The notes under the pieces: model-generated | Seen by the model: the letters and a program-made list of their open reading frames with translations, nothing else | The model's database searches: none | Told to the model about the DNA's origin: nothing | Part shown: positions 43,110 through 52,578 of the stretch, one piece after another | How the letters are laid out: every line of letters begins with the position of its first letter | How positions within the stretch are numbered: position 1 is the first letter of the stretch | Assembly (NCBI RefSeq): GCF_002797495.1 | Contig: NZ_PGEZ01000002.1 | Span: forward strand, 930,001 to 994,000 | Source: Mumia flava | Lineage (GTDB): Bacteria > Actinomycetota > Actinomycetes > Propionibacteriales > Nocardioidaceae | DNA length: 64,000 bases | Reading direction: 5' to 3' | Program-made: the position numbers and the translations under genes

Positions 43110-43856
43110 TCAGACCCCGGTGGGGCCGAACCGCTCCGTCTTGATCCGGGCCGGGTCGTGCCCGAGTGAGATCAGCATCGCCGCGACCGACTCCACGAAC
43201 CCGGTGGGGCCGCACACGAACGTCGCGGGTGCGAAGTCCGGCGGCCACGCCCAGCTGACCAGGTCGGCGACCTCGATCCGACCGACCGGGCGGGCGGCCT
43301 CCTCGGGCGCCTCGCGGGTGTAGAGGAACGCCACGTCGAGCGCCTGGTCGTCCGGACCCGGGTGCGCGAGCTCGCGGCGGAACATCCGGTCCGCGGGCGT
43401 CCGTACGGAGTAGAGCAGCCGGAACGGCGTCCGCGACCTGGCCTCGCGGCGGGTCCGCACCATCGAGACGAGCGGGACGATCCCGGACCCGCCGGCGATC
43501 AGGGTCACCGGAGTCCCGTCGGGCTCCCACACGAACCACTCGCCGATCGGGCCGCGGACCTCGATCTCGTCGCTGACCGCGAAGTCGTCGGCGAGGTACG
43601 GCGACACCTCGCCGTCGGCGACGCGTTGCACGGTGACCGCGACCCGGCGGCGTCCGCCCTGCGTGCTCGGCGCCGCGGCAGGGCTCGACAGCGAGTAGCT
43701 GCGTGTCGCGGTGTAGCCGTCGTCGGCGGTGAGCCGCAGATCGACGTGCTGGCCGGCGAGATTCCCGGGCCAACCCTCGACGTCGAGCTCGAGCGTCACC
43801 GCGCTCGCGGTCTCGGCCGTGCGGCTCACGCAGGTCGCGCGGCGCCAGGTCGCCAC
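43110..43856 (-). CDS. FAD/NAD(P)-binding oxidoreductase (ferredoxin-reductase fold)
   Basis: The 248-residue protein has the FAD-binding RSYSLSS motif, GPIGEWFVWEP, the NAD(P) motif LIAGGSGIVPLVSMVR and the C-terminal CGPTGFVESVAAMLISLGHD, ending ERFGPTGV. It lacks the 2Fe-2S domain found in many relatives. It should transfer electrons between NAD(P)H and a partner, most likely the molybdopterin protein whose gene ends 1 base upstream of its start. The operon order is molybdo-oxidoreductase, reductase, DUF6510. Confidence 0.9.
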   Translation of the reverse strand: MATWRRATCVSRTAETASAVTLELDVEGWPGNLAGQHVDLRLTADDGYTATRSYSLSSPAAAPSTQGGRRRVAVTVQRVADGEVSPYLADDFAVSDEIEVRGPIGEWFVWEPDGTPVTLIAGGSGIVPLVSMVRTRREARSRTPFRLLYSVRTPADRMFRRELAHPGPDDQALDVAFLYTREAPEEAARPVGRIEVADLVSWAWPPDFAPATFVCGPTGFVESVAAMLISLGHDPARIKTERFGPTGV

Positions 43857-43857
43857 G

Positions 43858-44454
43858 TCAGTCGCCCCGGTACCGCTGCTCGCGCCACGGGTCGCCGTAG
43901 TCGTGGTAGCCGAGCGTCTCCCAGAATCCGGGTCGGTCGTGCGCCATCAGCGTGATGCTGCGGACCCACTTCGCCGACTTCCACAGGTACAGGTGCGGTA
44001 CGAGGAGCCGCGCCGGCCCGCCGTGCTCGGGATGCAGCGGCTCCCCCTCGTACGTGTGGACGATCCAGGCGCGTCCGCCGCGCAGGTCAGCGAGCGGCAG
44101 GTTCGTGGTGTAGCCGCCGTACGACCCGACGGTCACGTACGAGGCCGAGGTCTCGACCCCGTCGAGCAGCACGTCGACGTCGACGCCGGTCCAGTGGGTG
44201 CCGAACTTCGACCACCGGGTCACGCAGTGCAGGTCGACGGTCGGGGTGCTCTGCGGGAGCGCCATCAGGTCCTGCCACGTCCAGCTGCGCTGCTCGCCGC
44301 TCTCGGCAGTCAGGTCGAGGCTCCAGCGATCGGTCGTGACCCGCGGCGTCGGACCGGCGGACAGGACCGGGAAGTCGCGGGTCTCGTACTGGCCGGGCGG
44401 CAGGTCGTGCTCGGACTCACGCGCGCGGCGGCGGAATCCCGGAGTCAGCGGCAT
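43858..44454 (-). CDS. Sulfite-oxidase-fold molybdopterin oxidoreductase (YuiH/MsrP-like)
   Basis: The 198-residue protein has VDLHCVTRWSKFGTHWTGVD, where the Cys is the molybdenum ligand. GSYGGYTTNLPLADL, PLHPEHGGPARLLVPHLYLW and KSAKWVRSITLMA are typical of the stand-alone oxidored_molyb domain. There is no Tat or signal peptide, so it is cytosolic, unlike MsrP. It probably reduces or oxidises a small substrate using the FAD reductase encoded next as electron partner. The first gene of the unit starts 66 bases from the 3' end of the TetR gene on the same strand. Confidence 0.9.
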   Translation of the reverse strand: MPLTPGFRRRARESEHDLPPGQYETRDFPVLSAGPTPRVTTDRWSLDLTAESGEQRSWTWQDLMALPQSTPTVDLHCVTRWSKFGTHWTGVDVDVLLDGVETSASYVTVGSYGGYTTNLPLADLRGGRAWIVHTYEGEPLHPEHGGPARLLVPHLYLWKSAKWVRSITLMAHDRPGFWETLGYHDYGDPWREQRYRGD

Positions 44455-44519: not shown

Positions 44520-45179
44520 TCAGATCCGCGGTGCAGGCGGCTCGAGCATGGGCACGAGGACGGTCCGGGCGACCGCCCGGAGCTGCTCGACGTCGTCGAT
44601 GTCGATCACCTCGCTCGGCGTCACGAGGAACGACGTCGAGATCCGCACCATCAGCTCGCCGACCAGGTCGACGTCGACGTCGTCGCTCACGTTGCCGGCC
44701 ACCTGCTCGCGGCGGAGCTGGCCCGCGACGAAGCGGCTGACGGTGGCCAACGTGCGACCTGCGTCGACCATCATCGAGTGCACGACCGGGTCGGGCTCGG
44801 CGGCGAGCAGGGCTCCGATGACCGGGTTGTGCCGGATCGCCCGCAGCGCGCTGGCGAAGCCGACCTCGACCCGCTCGGCGACCGTGCGGGCAGCACCGAT
44901 ATCCACGAGGAACTGCGCGAAGTACGCCCGTACCTCGCGGCGCACGACCTGCTCGACGAGGACGTCCTTCGTGGCGAAGCGTCGGTAGACCGTGATCCGC
45001 GAGACCCCTGCACGCCGTGCCACGTCGGCCATGGTGGTCCGCTGGACTCCCACCCGGCTGAACTGCTCGGACGCTGCTTCGAGCACCCGTGTGGTGATGG
45101 CGTCCTCCTCGGCCAGGCTCGCGTCCTCCGCGAACGCGCGCGCCAGCAGCGAGTCCGTGTCGGTGCCCGGCGTCGCCAT
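44520..45179 (-). CDS. TetR-family regulator divergent from lcp
   Basis: The 219-residue protein from ATG 45179 has the TetR helix-turn-helix QRTTMADVARRAGVSRITVY, then RRFATKDVLVEQVVRREV, and a C-terminal ligand-binding region. It is divergent from the latex clearing protein gene across 181 bases that carry an inverted repeat. In rubber-degrading Gordonia a TetR protein (LcpR) represses lcp, so the same role is inferred here. A longer upstream frame has no domain content. Confidence 0.88.
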   Translation of the reverse strand: MATPGTDTDSLLARAFAEDASLAEEDAITTRVLEAASEQFSRVGVQRTTMADVARRAGVSRITVYRRFATKDVLVEQVVRREVRAYFAQFLVDIGAARTVAERVEVGFASALRAIRHNPVIGALLAAEPDPVVHSMMVDAGRTLATVSRFVAGQLRREQVAGNVSDDVDVDLVGELMVRISTSFLVTPSEVIDIDDVEQLRAVARTVLVPMLEPPAPRI

Positions 45180-45279
45180 GCCACGACCGTACCGGGACGG
45201 GCGCGCTCGGACGGCGAACTCCGGATTGTCACGCGCCGTACCCGTCCGGAGGAGGGACTGGCGCAACCGCGCGGATTGT

Positions 45280-45295
45280 GGTGTCCTAGGTCACA
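45280..45295. promoter_or_regulatory. CRP/GlxR-like site in the lcp promoter
   Basis: GGTGTCCTAGGTCACA has an exact right half (TCACA) and a weaker left half of TGTGA-N6-TCACA. It shares the CTAGGTCA core with the GH3 promoter at 10200-10207 and abuts the inverted repeat at 45296. Carbon control of lcp is known in other species; here it is inferred. Confidence 0.4.
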
Positions 45296-45334
45296 CGAGA
45301 TACACGGTGCCTCATTTTGTATCTCTGTATCTCG
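45296..45334. promoter_or_regulatory. Inverted repeat, candidate TetR operator of lcp
   Basis: CGAGATACA (45296-45304) and TGTATCTCG (45326-45334) are perfect 9-bp arms. A third TGTATCTC half-site lies at 45318-45325 directly before the right arm. The element ends 26 bases before the lcp ATG, in a locally AT-rich stretch. Confidence 0.65.
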
Positions 45335-45360
45335 ACCGCGACCTGGACAAGGAGCCCGTC

Positions 45361-46602
45361 ATGCCCGAACTCAGCAGGCGCAAGATCCTGATCGCCGGAG
45401 GCGCCCTCGGGGCCGCCGGCGCACTCGGCGGCCTCGGCGCCATGCCACCGGTGATGGCGCGGCCGCAGTGGAGCTGGACCGCGGCGATGTCGGTCGCCGG
45501 CGGCAGCGGCACGGGCATCGACCCGCAGTGGCTCTGGGACGACGAGGTCGACTCCCTCATGGCCGCCGTGATCGACCGCGGCGACGTGCCGCTGGTCAAC
45601 CAGCACCTCGAGACCTGGACGCGCAACGACCAGCCCGTCCCCGACGGCCTGCCCGCCGACGTGAAGAACTGGATGAACCGCGCGCGCGCTCTCCCCGACT
45701 GGGTGGACCACGGCAAGCTCCGAGCCGCAGCCGACTTCAACAAGTCCCGCGGGATCCTCCTCAACCTCTGCAACGGCCCCGGCGGTGGGATGCTCAGCAC
45801 CGCCATCCCGCGAGAGGCACGCGCGGTCTACTACTCCAAGGGCGGCGCCGACATGGAGGACCGGGTCGCGAAGACCAGCATCCTCGGATTCTCCGTCGGT
45901 GATCTGAACGCCTACCAGCCGGACGGCGACTGCATCGTCCAGGCCGTCAAGACCCGGATGGTGCACGCGTCCGTGCGCCACCTGCTGCCCCAGTCCCCGC
46001 ACTGGACCGAGACGAGCGGCGGCCAGAAGATCCCGATCAGCATCGCCGACGTGCTCGTGACCTGGCACAGCCTGCCGACGTGGACGATGCAGAAGCTGCT
46101 CGAGTGGGACGTCCGCATGACGACCGAGGAGTCCGAGGGCTACCTGCACAGCTGGCAGGTCACCGCCCACATGCTGGGTGTTCCCGACGAGTACATCCCC
46201 GGCAGCTGGGACGCCGCGAACCTCCAGTCCAAGCAGATCTTCGACCCGGTGCTCGGGCCCACCTCCGAAGGCGTCATCCTCACCGACATCCTGCTCGGGC
46301 AGCTCGCCGAGCAGACCAGCCCCGGAAGCCTCAGCCGACCCGCGGTGAACGCGCTCGCGCGGTTCCTCGTCGGAGACAAGATCGCCGACTGGGACGGCAT
46401 CCCGCGCGAGCCGTTCTGGGAGTCGGCCATCCGCGCGGTCTGGCCGGCGTTCATCCGGCTGCGTGAAGGGGCGATCCGGCTGCCGCTGGTGCCGAGCCTC
46501 GCCTGGGCGATCGACGAGGCGGCACGCAACTACCTGATGTTCTACCTGACCAAGGGGCAGGGCACGCACATCTCCATCCCCGACACCAACCGCACGTTCT
46601 GA
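45361..46602 (+). CDS. lcp: Latex clearing protein (heme b rubber oxygenase)
   Basis: The 413-residue protein opens with a Tat-type signal SRRKILIAGGALGAAGALGG. The DUF2236 core is complete and aligns with Streptomyces K30 Lcp at a constant +4 offset: Glu152 (E148), Arg168, Lys171, Thr172 in DRVAKTS (R164, K167, T168), and His202 and Arg206 in MVHASVR (H198, the heme ligand, and R202). The secreted b-type cytochrome cleaves the double bonds of cis-1,4-polyisoprene to oligo-isoprenoids with aldehyde and ketone ends. AAGGAG lies before ATG 45361. Two molybdenum-hydroxylase genes follow, as in lcp-oxiAB of strain K30. Regulation is probably by the divergent TetR and a CRP-like factor. Confidence 0.93.
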   Translation: MPELSRRKILIAGGALGAAGALGGLGAMPPVMARPQWSWTAAMSVAGGSGTGIDPQWLWDDEVDSLMAAVIDRGDVPLVNQHLETWTRNDQPVPDGLPADVKNWMNRARALPDWVDHGKLRAAADFNKSRGILLNLCNGPGGGMLSTAIPREARAVYYSKGGADMEDRVAKTSILGFSVGDLNAYQPDGDCIVQAVKTRMVHASVRHLLPQSPHWTETSGGQKIPISIADVLVTWHSLPTWTMQKLLEWDVRMTTEESEGYLHSWQVTAHMLGVPDEYIPGSWDAANLQSKQIFDPVLGPTSEGVILTDILLGQLAEQTSPGSLSRPAVNALARFLVGDKIADWDGIPREPFWESAIRAVWPAFIRLREGAIRLPLVPSLAWAIDEAARNYLMFYLTKGQGTHISIPDTNRTF

Positions 46603-46613
46603 GGCCCCCAGGG

Positions 46614-48911
46614 ATGACGAACCACCACGGAACGGAGCAGCCCCGCCCGGACGGGATCGGACGACGGCGGTTCCTCGGGTACGTGCTCGCGGCGCCGACC
46701 CTGGCCGCGGCGGCGCAGATCGACGCACCGGGCCGCGCCCAGGCCGCGGTCACCCCCCAGCCGACGGACATCGTGGACCTCAACGACCTGATGACCGTCG
46801 CCGCGCTGCCGACGTCGCACCTCGTCACGGTGATGGTCAACACCGACGGAACCGTCTCGTTCGCCCTGCCCAGGGCCGAGGTCGGGCAGGGCATCACGAC
46901 GTCGACCGCGATGCTGATCGCCGAGGAGCTCGACGTCGGTCTCGAGCGGGTGAAGGTCTCGCTCGCCGACGCCCGTCCCGAGCTCGTCTTCAACCAGCTC
47001 ACGGGCGGCTCGAACACGACGATCGCGACGTACGAGCCGATCCGGGTGGCGGCGGCGGTGGCCCGCAAGCAGCTCCTGCTCGCGGCCGCCGCTCAGCTCG
47101 GCGTACCGACCGGGGACCTGACCCTCGCCGACGGTACGGTCACCGCCCCCGACGGCACCGCCCTCGACATCGGTTCGCTCGCGGAGAAGGCGGCCAGCAC
47201 CCACGTCCACCGTGTGTCGGTCTCCCTCAAGCCGAGGTCGCAGTTCGCCGTGATCGGCACCGCACGCACCCGCGTCGACGCCCTCGCTGCGGTGACCGGA
47301 CGCAAGACCTTCGCGATGGATCTGGACGTCCCGGACGCGAAGCCCACGATGGTCTGCCGCGCCCCCACCCTGAACGGGACGCCACGGTCGGCCGCGAACC
47401 TCGCCCAGGTCCGCTCCATGCCCGGAGTCACCGACGTGGTGACGATCTCGACCGGGATCGCCGTACGGGCGGAGACGTTCGGCCAGTGCATCGACGCGAT
47501 CCAGGTGCTCGAGGTCGCGTGGCGGGACGGGACGGCGGAGGGGAAGTCCGACGACGACGTTCTCCGCGAGCTGCGCTGGGCCGAACCCTCGCTCGGGCTG
47601 CCGCCGCTCGCACCGACGATCGACGAGCGGTTCACCTTCGCGTTCCGCAGCAACAGCGCGCTCGAGACCAACTGCGCCGTCGCGGACGTCCGGTCGGACC
47701 GGGCCGAGATCTGGTCCTCGCTGAAGTCCCCGATCGTGGCCCAGCAGACGATCGCGGCCAAGCTGCGGCTGCCGGTCCGCGACGTCACCGTCCACGTGAC
47801 CGAGGGCGGTGGTTCGTTCGGGCGCAAGCTCTTCTTCGATGCCGCGCTGGAGGCGGCCGAGATCTCCCGAGCGATCGGCAAGCCGGTGAAGCTCATGTGG
47901 CACCGCGCCGACGAGCCCCGCCAGGGCCGCACGCACCCGATGGCGACGTCGCGGGTGCGCACCTGGTACCTCGGCGGCCACGTGCTCGGGTTCAAGCAGG
48001 CGCACACCAGCGTGGCCACCGACCTCGGGCACGGCTTCGGCGAGCTCGTCACGGCGACGGCGGCGCACCTGCCGATCGCCGACCAGGCGTTCTCCCAGGT
48101 GTTCTTCCAGCTCTCCCAGACGATGCCGTACGAGTTCGGCGCCAGCAGCCGGATCCTCAACGAGACCGACCGCGGCTTCAACACCGGCAGCATGCGCAAC
48201 GTCTACTCCCCCGACGTCACGTGCTCCCGCGAGCTCGTCGTCGACCGTCTGGCCGCGCGGATGCGGGAGGACCCGTACCGGTTCCGGCGGCGGATGCTGC
48301 GGACGGACCGCGCGCGAGCGGTGCTGGACGAGGCGGCCCGGGTCGGAGAGTGGGGCCGGTCGCTGCCCGACGGCGTCGCCCAGGGAATCGCGTTCCACGA
48401 CGAGTACCGCGCCGTCAGCGCCGTCCTCGTCGAGATCGACTGCCGGCCGCAGACCGTGGGACGCCAGATCCGAGACGCCGTGACCGGGCCGCGCGTGACG
48501 AAGGCCGTCGTCGCGGTCGACGTCGGCCTCGCCGTGAACCCGAAGGGTCTGGAAGCCCAGATGATGGGCTGCGTGATGGACGGCATCGCGCACGCCCTGA
48601 CGGCCGGGCTGCACCTGCGCGACGGCGCGTTCCTCGAGGCGAGCTGGGACAACGACTTCTACACCCGGCAGTGGAACACGCCTCCGGACTTCCGGGTGGT
48701 GGTGATGCCGCCGACGACCGGCGAGCCCGGGGGCGCCGGAGAGCTCGGGGTCGCCGGCGCGATGGCGGCCGTGGCCTGCGCGTACGCCCGGGCGACCGGG
48801 TCGATGCCGACCCGCTTCCCGATCAACCACGGCACGCTGTCGTTCGAGCCGAAGCCCCCCGTACCGCCCGTACCGCAGTCACCGACCGACGGCCTGGACC
48901 ACGTCCGCTGA
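46614..48911 (+). CDS. Xanthine-dehydrogenase-family molybdopterin-binding subunit (Oxi-type aldehyde oxidase, large subunit)
   Basis: The 765-residue protein has a twin-arginine signal GRRRFLGYVLAAPTLAAAAQ, so the complex is exported. Molybdopterin-binding segments include LPRAEVGQGITTSTAMLIAE, NQLTGGSNTT, VTEGGGSFGRKLFFDAALEA and the C-terminal GEPGGAGELGVAG, with the catalytic Glu. It matches the isoquinoline-oxidoreductase/aldehyde-dehydrogenase (IorB-like) subgroup. The start lies 11 bases after lcp. In Streptomyces K30 the corresponding oxi genes are needed to oxidise the aldehydes made by Lcp; the same role is inferred. The small 2Fe-2S subunit follows. Confidence 0.92.
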   Translation: MTNHHGTEQPRPDGIGRRRFLGYVLAAPTLAAAAQIDAPGRAQAAVTPQPTDIVDLNDLMTVAALPTSHLVTVMVNTDGTVSFALPRAEVGQGITTSTAMLIAEELDVGLERVKVSLADARPELVFNQLTGGSNTTIATYEPIRVAAAVARKQLLLAAAAQLGVPTGDLTLADGTVTAPDGTALDIGSLAEKAASTHVHRVSVSLKPRSQFAVIGTARTRVDALAAVTGRKTFAMDLDVPDAKPTMVCRAPTLNGTPRSAANLAQVRSMPGVTDVVTISTGIAVRAETFGQCIDAIQVLEVAWRDGTAEGKSDDDVLRELRWAEPSLGLPPLAPTIDERFTFAFRSNSALETNCAVADVRSDRAEIWSSLKSPIVAQQTIAAKLRLPVRDVTVHVTEGGGSFGRKLFFDAALEAAEISRAIGKPVKLMWHRADEPRQGRTHPMATSRVRTWYLGGHVLGFKQAHTSVATDLGHGFGELVTATAAHLPIADQAFSQVFFQLSQTMPYEFGASSRILNETDRGFNTGSMRNVYSPDVTCSRELVVDRLAARMREDPYRFRRRMLRTDRARAVLDEAARVGEWGRSLPDGVAQGIAFHDEYRAVSAVLVEIDCRPQTVGRQIRDAVTGPRVTKAVVAVDVGLAVNPKGLEAQMMGCVMDGIAHALTAGLHLRDGAFLEASWDNDFYTRQWNTPPDFRVVVMPPTTGEPGGAGELGVAGAMAAVACAYARATGSMPTRFPINHGTLSFEPKPPVPPVPQSPTDGLDHVR

Positions 48912-48940
48912 GCCACCCGCCGAGCACAGGAGAAGAACGC

Positions 48941-49417
48941 GTGCCGAACCACACCTTCGTCGTCAACGGAGACCGGATCACCGTCGACCTCCCCGACGAC
49001 GTCCGGCTGCTCTGGGTGCTGCGCGACGTGCTCGGGATCACCGGCCCCAAGTACGGCTGCGGCATCAACGTGTGCAAGGCCTGCACCAGCCACATCAACG
49101 GCCGCGCTTTCAACCCGTGCGCGGTCCCGGTCTCCGAGGTGGGGCCGGACGACGAGATCACCACCATCGAAGGGCTGCCCGCCACCGTCGGTCGCGACCT
49201 GCACCCGATGCAGGAGGCGTGGCTGGAGCACGACGTCGCGCAGTGCGGATACTGCCAGCCCGGTCAGATCATGGCGGCGGTCGACCTCGTCCGGCGGGTC
49301 GAGGCCGAGGGCCGCGAGATCACCGACGACGACCTCGACACCCTCCGCAACATCTGCCGCTGCGGGACCTACCCGCGCATCCGCGACGCGATCAGGACCG
49401 GCGCCGCCGCGATGTAG
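48941..49417 (+). CDS. 2Fe-2S subunit of the molybdenum hydroxylase
   Basis: The 158-residue protein from GTG 48941 (AGGAGAAG upstream) carries the plant-type ferredoxin cluster motif YGCGINVCKACTSHINGRAF plus Cys at NPCAV. The second all-helical cluster is in QCGYCQPGQIMAAVDL and NICRCGTYPRIRDAI. This two-cluster arrangement is that of CoxS/IorA small subunits. It lacks a signal peptide, so it would be exported folded with the Tat-bearing large subunit. It is the third gene of the lcp operon. No FAD-binding subunit or maturation factor is encoded here, so electrons must go to an external acceptor such as a cytochrome. Confidence 0.93.
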   Translation: MPNHTFVVNGDRITVDLPDDVRLLWVLRDVLGITGPKYGCGINVCKACTSHINGRAFNPCAVPVSEVGPDDEITTIEGLPATVGRDLHPMQEAWLEHDVAQCGYCQPGQIMAAVDLVRRVEAEGREITDDDLDTLRNICRCGTYPRIRDAIRTGAAAM

Positions 49418-49534: not shown

Positions 49535-51193
49535 ATGCCGAGACCGACGATCCTCACCGTCGACGACGACCCCCAGGTCGCCGACGCGCTCGTCCGGGAC
49601 CTCAAGGACCAGTACGGCGAGGAGTTCCGCGTCCTCGGGGCGACGTCCGGCGCCGAGGCGCTGGACCTGCTCGCGTCGCTGGCGCTGCGCGGCGACCCGG
49701 TCGCGCTGATCGTCACCGATCAGCGGATGCCGTCGATCAGCGGGACCGAGCTGCTGGCCCGCTCCCGCGAGCACGCTCCCGACGCGAAGCTCCTGCTGCT
49801 CACCGCGTACGCCGACACCGACGTCGCGATCGCGGCGATCAACGAGATCGGCCTCGACTACTACCTGCTCAAACCGTGGGACCCGCCGCAGGAGCGGCTC
49901 TTCCCCGTCGTCGAGGACCTGCTCGGCGACTGGCGGTCGGCCCACCCCGACGTCACCACGCAGATCAGGGTCGTCGGCGACCGGTGGTCCGACCGGACGT
50001 ACGAGCTGAAGACGTTCCTCGCCCGCAACCACGTCCCGTACCTGTGGCTGGACGTCGAGCGCGACGCGGAGGGGCGCCGGCTGCACGAGGCGGCCGGCGG
50101 GGACGATGCCGACCTGCCGCTGGTGCTCCCGCCGGACGCTCCGCCGCTGCGCTCGCCGAGCGTGCGCGACCTCGCGACCGCGCTCGACCTGCACACCGAC
50201 GCCAGCCAGCCGCTCTACGACGTGTGCATCGTCGGTGGTGGGCCCGCCGGGCTGGCCGCGGGCGTCTACGCCGCGTCGGAAGGGCTGAGCACCGTGATCG
50301 TCGAGCGGCAGGCGCCGGGCGGGCAGGCAGGCCAGAGCGCCGCGATCGAGAACTACCTGGGGTTCCCCCGCGGACTCAGCGGCGCCGATCTGGCGCAGCG
50401 GGCCCTCGCGCAGGTCATGCGGTTCGGCGCCGAGCTCGTGCTCGCCCGCGACGTGGTCGGTCTGGAGCGGCGGGGCCCCGTCCGTGCGGTCCTGCTCGAG
50501 GGCGACGGGGTGGTCGAGGCCCGCTCGGTGGTCGTGGCCAGCGGCGTCGCGTACCGACGGCTCGAGGCCGACGGGATCGAGCGGCTCCAGGGGCGCGGGG
50601 TCTACTACGGAGCGACCGCCAGCGATGCCGCGCAGGTCCGTGACGACGTGGTGTACGTCGTGGGTGGGGCGAACTCCGCGGGGCAGGCCGTGCTCAACCT
50701 CGCGCGTTACGCGAAGGAGGTCGTGATGGTGGTCCGGGGCACCGACCTGGCCGACACGATGTCGAGCTACCTGGTCGAGCGCATCACCAGCACTCCGAAC
50801 ATCACCGTGCGGACCGACAGCGAGATCGCCTCGGCCGACGGTGACGGGCACCTCGAGCGCCTGTGCGTGCGGACGCGGTCGAGCGGCGAGTCCGACGAGG
50901 TGGTCGCGCACTGGCTCTTCGTCTTCATCGGAGCCTCACCTCGGACGGACTGGCTCGGTGGTGACGTCGCTCGCGACGACCACGGCTTCGTCCTCACCGG
51001 TCCGGACCTGACGGCGCGCGCGACCTCGCCGACCTGGCCGCTCGAGCGACCGCCCGGCCTGCTCGAGACCACCGTGCCCGGCGTGTTCGCCGCCGGCGAC
51101 GTGCGGCTGGACTCGATGAAACGGGTCGCCTCGGCCGTCGGCGACGGAGCGATGTCGATCTCGCTCGTGCACCGCTACCTCGGGTCGTTGTGA
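49535..51193 (+). CDS. Response-regulator / thioredoxin-reductase-like FAD protein fusion
   Basis: The 552-residue protein has an N-terminal receiver domain (about 1-125): TILTVDDDPQVADAL, the phospho-Asp in LIVTDQRMPSISG, and YYLLKPW with the Lys. A linker leads to a TrxR-type flavoprotein (about 225-552): CIVGGGPAGLAAGVYAASEG, ERQAPGGQAGQSAAIENYLG, and GVFAAGDVRLDSMKRVASAV. The redox CxxC site is absent (GVYYGATASDAAQ in its place), so it cannot act as a classical thioredoxin reductase. Its stop overlaps the start of the histidine-kinase gene (TGATG), so the two form a pair. The output may be flavin-based redox chemistry rather than DNA binding. Confidence 0.9.
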   Translation: MPRPTILTVDDDPQVADALVRDLKDQYGEEFRVLGATSGAEALDLLASLALRGDPVALIVTDQRMPSISGTELLARSREHAPDAKLLLLTAYADTDVAIAAINEIGLDYYLLKPWDPPQERLFPVVEDLLGDWRSAHPDVTTQIRVVGDRWSDRTYELKTFLARNHVPYLWLDVERDAEGRRLHEAAGGDDADLPLVLPPDAPPLRSPSVRDLATALDLHTDASQPLYDVCIVGGGPAGLAAGVYAASEGLSTVIVERQAPGGQAGQSAAIENYLGFPRGLSGADLAQRALAQVMRFGAELVLARDVVGLERRGPVRAVLLEGDGVVEARSVVVASGVAYRRLEADGIERLQGRGVYYGATASDAAQVRDDVVYVVGGANSAGQAVLNLARYAKEVVMVVRGTDLADTMSSYLVERITSTPNITVRTDSEIASADGDGHLERLCVRTRSSGESDEVVAHWLFVFIGASPRTDWLGGDVARDDHGFVLTGPDLTARATSPTWPLERPPGLLETTVPGVFAAGDVRLDSMKRVASAVGDGAMSISLVHRYLGSL

Positions 51194-52578
51194 TGCTTGC
51201 CGACGAGCTGGGCACGATCGAGCTGCTCGCCGGTCTCACCGAGGAGCAGCGCTCGGAGCTCGCGTCGCGCGCGGACGTCGTGGCCTTCGCGCGGGACGAG
51301 GTCCTGTGGATCGAGGGCGAGCACGCCGACAGCTGGTGGGTGCTGCTCGAGGGGGTGGTCGCGCTGTCGCGCAGGGTCGGCCGCGAGGACGTGATCGTCG
51401 CGAGGATGGACGTTCCCGGGCGGTGGGCCGGAGGGTTCCAGGCGTGGGACGACGAGGGCTTCTACCTCGCGACCGCGCGCGCGACGAGCAACGGCCGGAT
51501 GCTGCGCCTGGACGCGACCGACCTGCGCGCGCTGCTCGACGCCTGGTTCCCGTTCGGCGGGCACCTGGTCAACGGGCTCTACCACACCGCCCGGTCGGTC
51601 GAGTCCACCGTCCGGCAGCGCGCCTCGCTCATCACGCTCGGCACGCTCGCGGCGGGACTCGCCCACGAGCTCAACAATCCGGCCGCTGCCGCGACCCGAG
51701 CGGTCGACGGTCTCGGCGAGGCCTGCGACGCCCTCCTCGGATGCCTGATCGGTCTCGCTCGGCACGACCTGACGCCCACGCAGTTCCTCGCGCTCGACGA
51801 CCTGCGGAGCGAGCTCCGGGCTGCTCCTCGGCCTCCGGACGCTCTGACCCTCGCCGACCGTGAGGACGAGCTCGCCGACTGGCTCGTCCGGCATGCCGTG
51901 AGCCGACCGCGGAGACTGGCCGCGACCTTCGCCGCCGCCGGCGCCGACGTCGTCTGGGCCGGCCGGGTCTCCGCCGCGCTCCCCGGGCCCGCGCTCGAGC
52001 TCGGTCTCGGCTGGGTCGCGGCGACGCTCGATGCCTCCACCCTCCTGGAGCGGACGAAGGAGTCGACGCGGCGAGTCTCCGAGCTCGTCGCCTCGGTCCG
52101 TTCGTACTCGCAGATGGACCGCGCCTCCCGGCAGGAGATCGACGTCCGGGACGGGCTCGAGAACACCTTGACGATGCTCGGCCACCGACTGCACGGTCCG
52201 ATCGACGTCGTGCGCCGCTACGACGACCCACCCGCGATCGACGCGCACCCGGGCGAGCTCAACCAGGTCTGGACCAACGTGATCAGCAACGCGCTCGACG
52301 CGATGGACGACGCGGGGACGCTGACGATCGCGGCGTACGGCGAGCAGGACCACGTGGTCGTCGAGATCGGCGACACCGGGCCGGGCATGCCCGACGACGT
52401 CGCGGCTCGGGCGTTCGAACCGTTCTTCACCACGAAGGAGATCGGCGACGGGACCGGACTCGGCCTCGACATCGCACGACGGATCGTCGTCGAACGACAC
52501 GGCGGGACGATCGACCTCCGCACGTCGGCGGACGGGACGACGATGGTGGTCCGGCTCCCGGTGCACAGGGCGGAGTGA
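51193..52578 (+). CDS. Histidine kinase with N-terminal cyclic-nucleotide-binding-like domain
   Basis: The 461-residue protein has a cNMP-type beta-barrel (about 1-130; DSWWVLLEGVVALSRRV and PGRWAGGFQAWDDEGFYLAT). A phospho-acceptor helix follows with LAAGLAHELNNPAAAATRAV (His in AHELNNP). The ATPase domain has NQVWTNVISNALDAMDDAG (N box), EIGDTGPGMPDD (G1), FFTTKEIGDGTGLGLDIARR (F and G2). There is no transmembrane segment, so it is cytosolic. ATG 51193 shares its A with the stop of the response-regulator fusion, its evident partner. The ligand of the barrel is unknown; the canonical phosphate-binding Arg is not obvious. Confidence 0.9.
   Translation: MLADELGTIELLAGLTEEQRSELASRADVVAFARDEVLWIEGEHADSWWVLLEGVVALSRRVGREDVIVARMDVPGRWAGGFQAWDDEGFYLATARATSNGRMLRLDATDLRALLDAWFPFGGHLVNGLYHTARSVESTVRQRASLITLGTLAAGLAHELNNPAAAATRAVDGLGEACDALLGCLIGLARHDLTPTQFLALDDLRSELRAAPRPPDALTLADREDELADWLVRHAVSRPRRLAATFAAAGADVVWAGRVSAALPGPALELGLGWVAATLDASTLLERTKESTRRVSELVASVRSYSQMDRASRQEIDVRDGLENTLTMLGHRLHGPIDVVRRYDDPPAIDAHPGELNQVWTNVISNALDAMDDAGTLTIAAYGEQDHVVVEIGDTGPGMPDDVAARAFEPFFTTKEIGDGTGLGLDIARRIVVERHGGTIDLRTSADGTTMVVRLPVHRAE

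Follow-up and report, generated by a model that had tools for sequence, protein, structure and literature searches.

Introduction

Does the group of genes at positions 44520 to 49417 of a 64,000-nucleotide stretch of the Mumia flava genome form an intact rubber-degradation operon, and what would control it? The stretch analysed (the window) corresponds to C2:930001-994000 in a genome of 4.40 Mb that is 99.75% complete, and Mumia is a soil-type actinobacterium. A previous reading of this DNA, the original prediction, described a TetR-type regulator gene divergent from the gene for a latex clearing protein (Lcp), which is followed by genes for the large molybdenum subunit and the small 2Fe-2S subunit of a hydroxylase, and all four genes are found where it placed them. 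Here we propose, with a probability of roughly 0.88, that they represent an intact lcp-oxiB-oxiA rubber-degradation operon of Mumia, which would be controlled by the divergent regulator, termed TetR-A. The identification of rubber cleavage by Lcp and OxiAB is supported by homology to the structure of LcpK30, the enzyme of Streptomyces sp. K30, by the position of Lcp in a phylogenetic tree, and by strong conservation of gene order. This type of locus and the claim of an extracellular OxiAB are already known in print, and the regulatory pattern is less known.

Layout of the locus

In published usage OxiB is the large subunit and OxiA the small one (PMC8235351), and the order of the locus is therefore lcp-oxiB-oxiA. 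The likeness to the lcp-oxiAB locus of strain K30, drawn in the original prediction, holds for the arrangement; its order of naming does not, the published order being lcp-oxiB-oxiA. The features are as follows.

44520..45179, minus strand: tetR-A, TetR/AcrR-type regulator, probable LcpR, divergent from lcp (PF00440, TetR_N, E 1.3e-14)
45299..45331, no strand: predicted TetR-A operator, 33 bp (score 17/20)
45361..46602, plus strand: lcp (LcpA clade), latex clearing protein, predicted b-heme rubber oxygenase, 413 aa (5o1l, PF09995, heme-pocket residues, tree)
45361..45459, plus strand: predicted Tat (twin-arginine translocation) signal peptide of Lcp, SRRKIL at residues 5-10, cleavage near VMA-RP placed by eye
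46614..48911, plus strand: oxiB, molybdenum-cofactor large subunit, 765 aa (PF20256, PF02738, 8gy3_C)
46614..46745, plus strand: predicted Tat signal peptide of OxiB, GRRRFLG at residues 16-22, cleavage near AQA placed by eye
48941..49417, plus strand: oxiA, 2Fe-2S small subunit, 158 aa, GTG start, no signal peptide seen (8gy3_B)

The lcp frame opens at ATG 45361 and its stop is at 46602, with gaps of 11 bp between lcp and oxiB and 29 bp between oxiB and oxiA. The tetR-A frame stays open as far as TTG 45266, and its start was assigned to ATG 45179 by judgement.

Lcp resembles the rubber oxygenase of Streptomyces sp. K30

The closest solved structures of the window Lcp are those of LcpK30 only (5o1l, E 5.4e-152; 5o1m, E 5.1e-141; phmmer, two distinct sequences). 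Aligned with this characterised enzyme, as the original prediction had proposed, 222 of 402 residues are identical (55.2%), and the six K30 residues it had listed at a +4 offset, E148, R164, K167, T168, H198 and R202, are conserved exactly so, as is R195. Roles of His198, Lys167, Arg164, Thr168 and Glu148 in LcpK30 have been described (PMC5522427), and R164, T168 and H198, which correspond to R168, T172 and H202 of the window protein, are reported to be nearly invariant and required for activity (PMC6311187, PMC5522427). The PF09995 match scores 39.9 bits against a cut-off of 23. The motif SRRKIL points to export by Tat, and an RRxx[LFMIV] motif is found in 131 of 132 sampled Lcp rows. Heme b binding and polyisoprene cleavage are predicted properties of this protein.

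A position outside the Lcp clade had been named in advance as speaking against the identification. In a tree of 81 rows, built by a quick method with SH-aLRT support and no bootstrap, the window protein falls inside a 25-row LcpA clade (SH-aLRT 100) as sister to LcpA of Mumia xiangluensis (100). Elsewhere among the sampled proteins, six Nocardioidaceae Lcp relatives (L106-L111) lie on a long branch (1.91) and retain all seven heme-pocket residues checked; TetR-A had no match in the short loci fetched around them.

OxiB and OxiA are a molybdenum hydroxylase pair

OxiB carries MoCoBD_2 (PF20256) and MoCoBD_1 (PF02738) in an order that is rearranged relative to xanthine dehydrogenase, and its best solved match is 8gy3_C (E 1.2e-25 over residues 75-737). 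A GGAGELG motif at residue 706 is taken here to be the catalytic Glu site. OxiA, which has eight cysteines, matches the partner chain 8gy3_B best (E 4.4e-38), with 36 further distinct sequences matched. The 8gy3 aldehyde dehydrogenase, which presumably has a cytochrome subunit, thus provides the best solved match of both proteins, and it differs from the window operon in that the latter holds no cytochrome c gene. Frames with CxxCH near the operon, as candidates for a cytochrome c partner of OxiAB, were seen in only 2 of 60 loci with a crude gene caller that recovered OxiA in 45 of the 60 and overlooked it in the window. There is no FAD gene inside the operon, as originally predicted, and an XdhC/CoxI-family gene is present elsewhere in the M. 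flava genome.

The Tat signal that had been ascribed to the hydroxylase is borne out by GRRRFLG in its large subunit, and across 57 OxiB rows the RRxFL motif occurs in 53, with a variant RR motif in the remaining four. Among the OxiA rows an RR pair within the first 40 aligned residues was found in 1 of 57. The presence of the motif on OxiB and its near-absence from OxiA therefore fit export of OxiA as a hitchhiker. That a Tat-borne OxiAB acts outside the cell has already been proposed (PMC11169899, PMC8235351). An isoprenoid aldehyde as the substrate of OxiAB is suggested by the operon linkage and by the published work on K30.

The gene order is conserved across lcp loci

The 58 loci compared here were selected for an Lcp closely similar to that of the window, and the sample therefore leans towards this operon type. 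The order tetR-A<>lcp-lcp-oxiB-oxiA occurs in 48 of them: 44 plain, two with an extra tetR-A, and two (L021, L056) counted as having the usual order because their apparent reordering came from stop-to-stop frames. Among the ten that deviate, three (L026, L029, L034) have no tetR-A match, two (L022, L032) are broken by contig ends, L047 is split, and in L013 oxiB was not seen within the 4.7 kb available downstream. L069 has a lone lcp, L065 has a single lcp in the operon, as in the window, and L012 (M. xiangluensis, NZ_WJYO01000007.1, the same locus as G005:C7:121015) has a different TetR at the lcp operon. Overall, oxiB is present in 54 of the 58 loci, from 14 named genera, and in 53 the divergent neighbour of lcp is a tetR-A relative (59-70% identity). 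Clustering of the genes in 60 loci gave just one non-core family that exceeds 12 loci; it is ligase-like, a name given by eye, and occurs in 18. The single-lcp operon of the window is thus a minor variant of the common two-lcp layout; a single-lcp form has also been reported for Streptomyces sp. K30 (PMC9108482).

A nested palindrome is the predicted operator of TetR-A

TetR-A shows the features of an LcpR-type regulator: a TetR_N domain, a gene divergent from lcp, and a palindrome within the promoter region of lcp. In a TetR tree it falls inside a 29-row group, without finer resolution. The site, first noticed in the gaps between tetR-A and lcp, is a nested palindrome, GATACn3GATACn7GTATCn3GTATC (33 bp). 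In the window it has GATAC at 0, a degenerate half-site at 8, and GTATC at 20 and 28, with 29 bp between it and the start codon of lcp. Fifty-four gaps served to define the motif, namely that of the window and those of 53 of the 58 loci, the other five lacking a tetR-A gap; all 54 score at least 15/20, 49 at least 16 and 39 at least 17. Dinucleotide shuffles gave 0.02 loci per round at 15 or above and 0.0 at 16, and none of 200 shuffles reached the 17/20 of the window element. The three full half-sites of this element match the genome once at up to two mismatches, and a reversed control gave no match.

Loci outside the motif definition behave accordingly. All nine distinct Nocardioidaceae tetR-A<>lcpB loci score 18-20, and of the 21 distinct lcp loci that lack tetR-A none reaches 15/20 on the 33-bp layout: scores are 10-12 with TetR-B (four loci), TetR-C (nine) or no TetR-A match (two), and 12-14 in six far relatives. 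Binding of TetR-A at 45299-45331 is thus a prediction from these patterns. The lcp2VH2 palindrome of Gordonia polyisoprenivorans VH2, which is bound by LcpR_VH2 and quoted in PMC7413915, fits the same four-half-site layout with 16/20 when the sites are compared. The VH2 system differs in that its lcp1VH2 palindrome scores 8/20, and Gordonia is said to be without an oxiAB homologue (PMC8235351). The palindrome of Actinoplanes sp. OR16, with 6/20, was likewise rejected as the same element, and of the three published sites only that of lcp2VH2 fits. Excerpts of the lcp-regulation literature, the primary LcpR_VH2 and LcpRB papers aside, contain no four-half-site description of this operator. The analysis amounts to a sequence rule for which lcp gene a given TetR controls, and could guide the induction of rubber-degrading strains.

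Three lcp genes with three types of TetR

The locus had been called complete. Its four genes are all present, and completeness was overstated, since the genome holds two further lcp genes, at C2:1040357 (50% identity) and C1:348476 (49%). The first, lcpB, lies about 65 kb from the window operon and faces TetR-B; the second, lcpC, is on another contig and is followed by TetR-C, a double TetR of 417 aa. This pairing of lcpC with a double TetR (L071:7468-9978, G000:C1) is seen in nine Nocardioidaceae loci, this one included.

The three regulators are only distantly related (TetR-A versus TetR-B, 51 residues, E 0.032; TetR-A versus TetR-C, 47 residues, E 2.6e-5; TetR-B versus TetR-C, 88 residues, 34%, E 4.8e-10), and they go with three different sites, each single in the genome. 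The TetR-B loci share TAYTGKCAn3TGCCRATA (all four Mumia loci, which also served to derive it), with one genome occurrence at C2:1040280; in other Mumia the site is of the type TATTGGCA n3 TGCCAATA. Upstream of lcpC stands TATGTTAATGGCGAATCACA, which shares 17 of 20 bases with the LcpRB palindrome as given in PMC7413915. Allowing up to two mismatches, TATGTTAATGn3AATCACA has a single match in the genome, at this place upstream of lcpC. Each of the three lcp genes thus appears to answer to a switch of its own. Cross-talk between the TetR types is possible, since in OR16 one regulator, of the same kind as TetR-C, bound the two lcp promoters of that strain (PMC7413915).

The arrangement varies within the genus. 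M. flava has lcpA-oxiB-oxiA beside TetR-A and lcpB alone beside TetR-B; M. xiangluensis has TetR-B<>lcpB-lcpA-oxiB-oxiA, and two further Mumia genomes (G002, G003) have TetR-B<>lcpB-oxiB-oxiA. One more genome (G001) gave no Lcp match at E 0.001 and another (G004) only a match of 23%. The four Mumia LcpB rows form one clade (100), as do the four Mumia OxiB (99/99). An LcpA-type gene is found in only two of 294 Nocardioidaceae genomes, M. flava and M. xiangluensis, the only ones with an Lcp above 53% identity to that of the window, and this rarity suggests import; LcpA groups near that of Actinosynnema (SH-aLRT 87). OxiB, in contrast, clusters with the OxiB of Mumia and of two further Nocardioidaceae. 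It is an evenly balanced proposition that the lcp trio of M. flava represents three TetR/operator pairs and that the operon was rewired within the genus, with regulator and operator swapping jointly around an oxiB-oxiA pair that stays constant. If so, polyisoprene cleavage and aldehyde oxidation could obey different signals in sister species.

A model for the operon and its relation to known systems

According to the model we favour, TetR-A would occupy the 45299-45331 element until a polyisoprene-linked inducer frees it. Lcp would be exported by Tat and, as is established for LcpK30, would cut the double bond of cis-1,4-polyisoprene with O2 at a b-type heme, with His202 as the proximal and Lys171 as the distal ligand, to give oligo-isoprenoids with keto and aldehyde ends. 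OxiB would also be exported by Tat, carrying OxiA as a hitchhiker, and OxiAB might then turn the aldehyde ends into acids outside the membrane, handing the electrons to an acceptor.

Streptomyces sp. K30 shares with the window a single lcp that is followed by the large molybdenum and small 2Fe-2S subunits, with 55% identity between the Lcp proteins. It differs in having one lcp in all (PMC9108482), as against three in M. flava, and in that LcpK30 falls outside the LcpA clade. Actinoplanes sp. OR16 resembles M. flava in its divergent TetR, in lcp being followed by oxiB-oxiA, and in a third lcp that stands apart beside a double TetR and a TATGTTAATG-type palindrome; its operon holds two lcp genes, and two regulators have been described for it, as against one lcp in the window operon and three TetR types beside lcp genes in M. 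flava. For this two-lcp layout it has been shown that the genes are transcribed as an operon, that rubber induces them and that the adjacent TetR binds the lcp promoter (PMC7413915). A 2021 review tabulates Mumia with one species and three Lcp genes (PMC8235351). Titles in the literature on Mumia with rubber or polyisoprene, or on Nocardioid- with latex clearing protein, included none on growth of Mumia on rubber. The locus documents the lcp-oxiB-oxiA form in a genus of the Nocardioidaceae, and growth on latex is predicted.

How specific is the operon for rubber?

Several observations weigh against a rubber-degradation operon, and we take them together with the rival explanations. In one of these, OxiAB would be an exported aldehyde oxidase of general use, captured beside lcp, with no specificity for isoprenoid aldehydes. 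In 294 Nocardioidaceae genomes (OxiB at E 1e-100 and Lcp at E 1e-40, scoring 3 and at most 6 candidates in each), OxiB relatives were found in 121 and Lcp in 26. From their number, most members of the OxiB family must serve other needs, and because they outnumber Lcp, oxiAB alone is no marker of rubber degradation, a warning to surveys that rely on it. In addition, two genomes, G191 and G084 (L113, L114), carry oxiB-oxiA at 72-74% OxiB identity without an adjacent lcp, and in the tree their OxiB proteins stand next to those of Mumia (100/99); G084 gave no Lcp match at E 1e-40. Against this, a tree of 30 OxiB rows, drawn without L065 (52% identity, long branch), places all 22 lcp-linked rows and only two unlinked ones on one side (100/100) and six unlinked rows on the other. 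The lcp-linked OxiB are thus a real group, and the window protein belongs to these 24 rows (100/100). Taken with the presence of oxiB in 54 of 58 lcp loci, this makes a captured general oxidase rather unlikely.

The natural substrate could also be another polyprenyl or terpenoid double bond, with rubber cleavage incidental. Lcp is part of a wider fold family (PF09995). It also counts against the favoured reading that LcpK30 lies outside the LcpA clade in the 81-row tree. The original prediction had concluded from the six conserved residues that the enzyme should be active. None of these residues varies among the 144 Lcp rows sampled, six of which are only about 42% identical and still retain all seven residues checked. 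The residues therefore do not discriminate within the sample; they are best read as marks of family membership and of a heme pocket and not, by themselves, of activity. This sample is narrower than the family, since Lys167 is given as present in only 59% of 495 sequences (PMC5522427). By gene position the OR16 counterpart of the window protein would be Lcp2, which is reported to be about seven times less active than Lcp1 (PMC7413915). This assignment is unsure, because the Dactylosporangium lcp2, also beside oxiB, is related to OR16 lcp1 (PMC11169899). The isoprene degrader Nocardioides sp. WS12 is reported to have rubber-degradation genes, and its use of rubber is only presumed (PMC10731047). 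On the other hand, rubber induces the comparable operon of OR16, the three purified Lcp of that strain consumed O2 with latex (PMC7413915), and lcp goes together with oxiB across the 14 genera; we therefore regard another natural substrate as improbable.

A silent or non-functional import, which the restriction of Lcp above 53% identity to two Nocardioidaceae genomes might suggest, is hardly credible, given lcp and oxiB frames without internal stops and the retention of the heme and molybdenum-site motifs and of the operator.

Neighbouring genes and genes elsewhere in the genome

On the strand of tetR-A and adjoining it, 43110-44454 (minus strand) encodes a sulfite-oxidase-type molybdopterin protein (PF00174) and an FAD/NAD reductase. 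This pair was considered as part of the operon and rejected: none of the 58 loci has a counterpart of it next to lcp, apart from L056 with a weak reductase match (31%). A locus outside that set, L072, has a reductase match at 29% near lcp. After oxiA, 49535-52578 (plus strand) encodes a protein that joins a response regulator to a thioredoxin-reductase-like FAD domain and, in an overlapping gene, a histidine kinase that has a cyclic-nucleotide-binding domain; these too were set aside, being without counterpart beside lcp in the 58 loci. Genes for uptake and beta-oxidation would be located outside the operon. As a candidate uptake system, six Mce-type (MlaD) matches lie in one cluster of the M. 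flava genome, at G000:C1:2694147-2700075.

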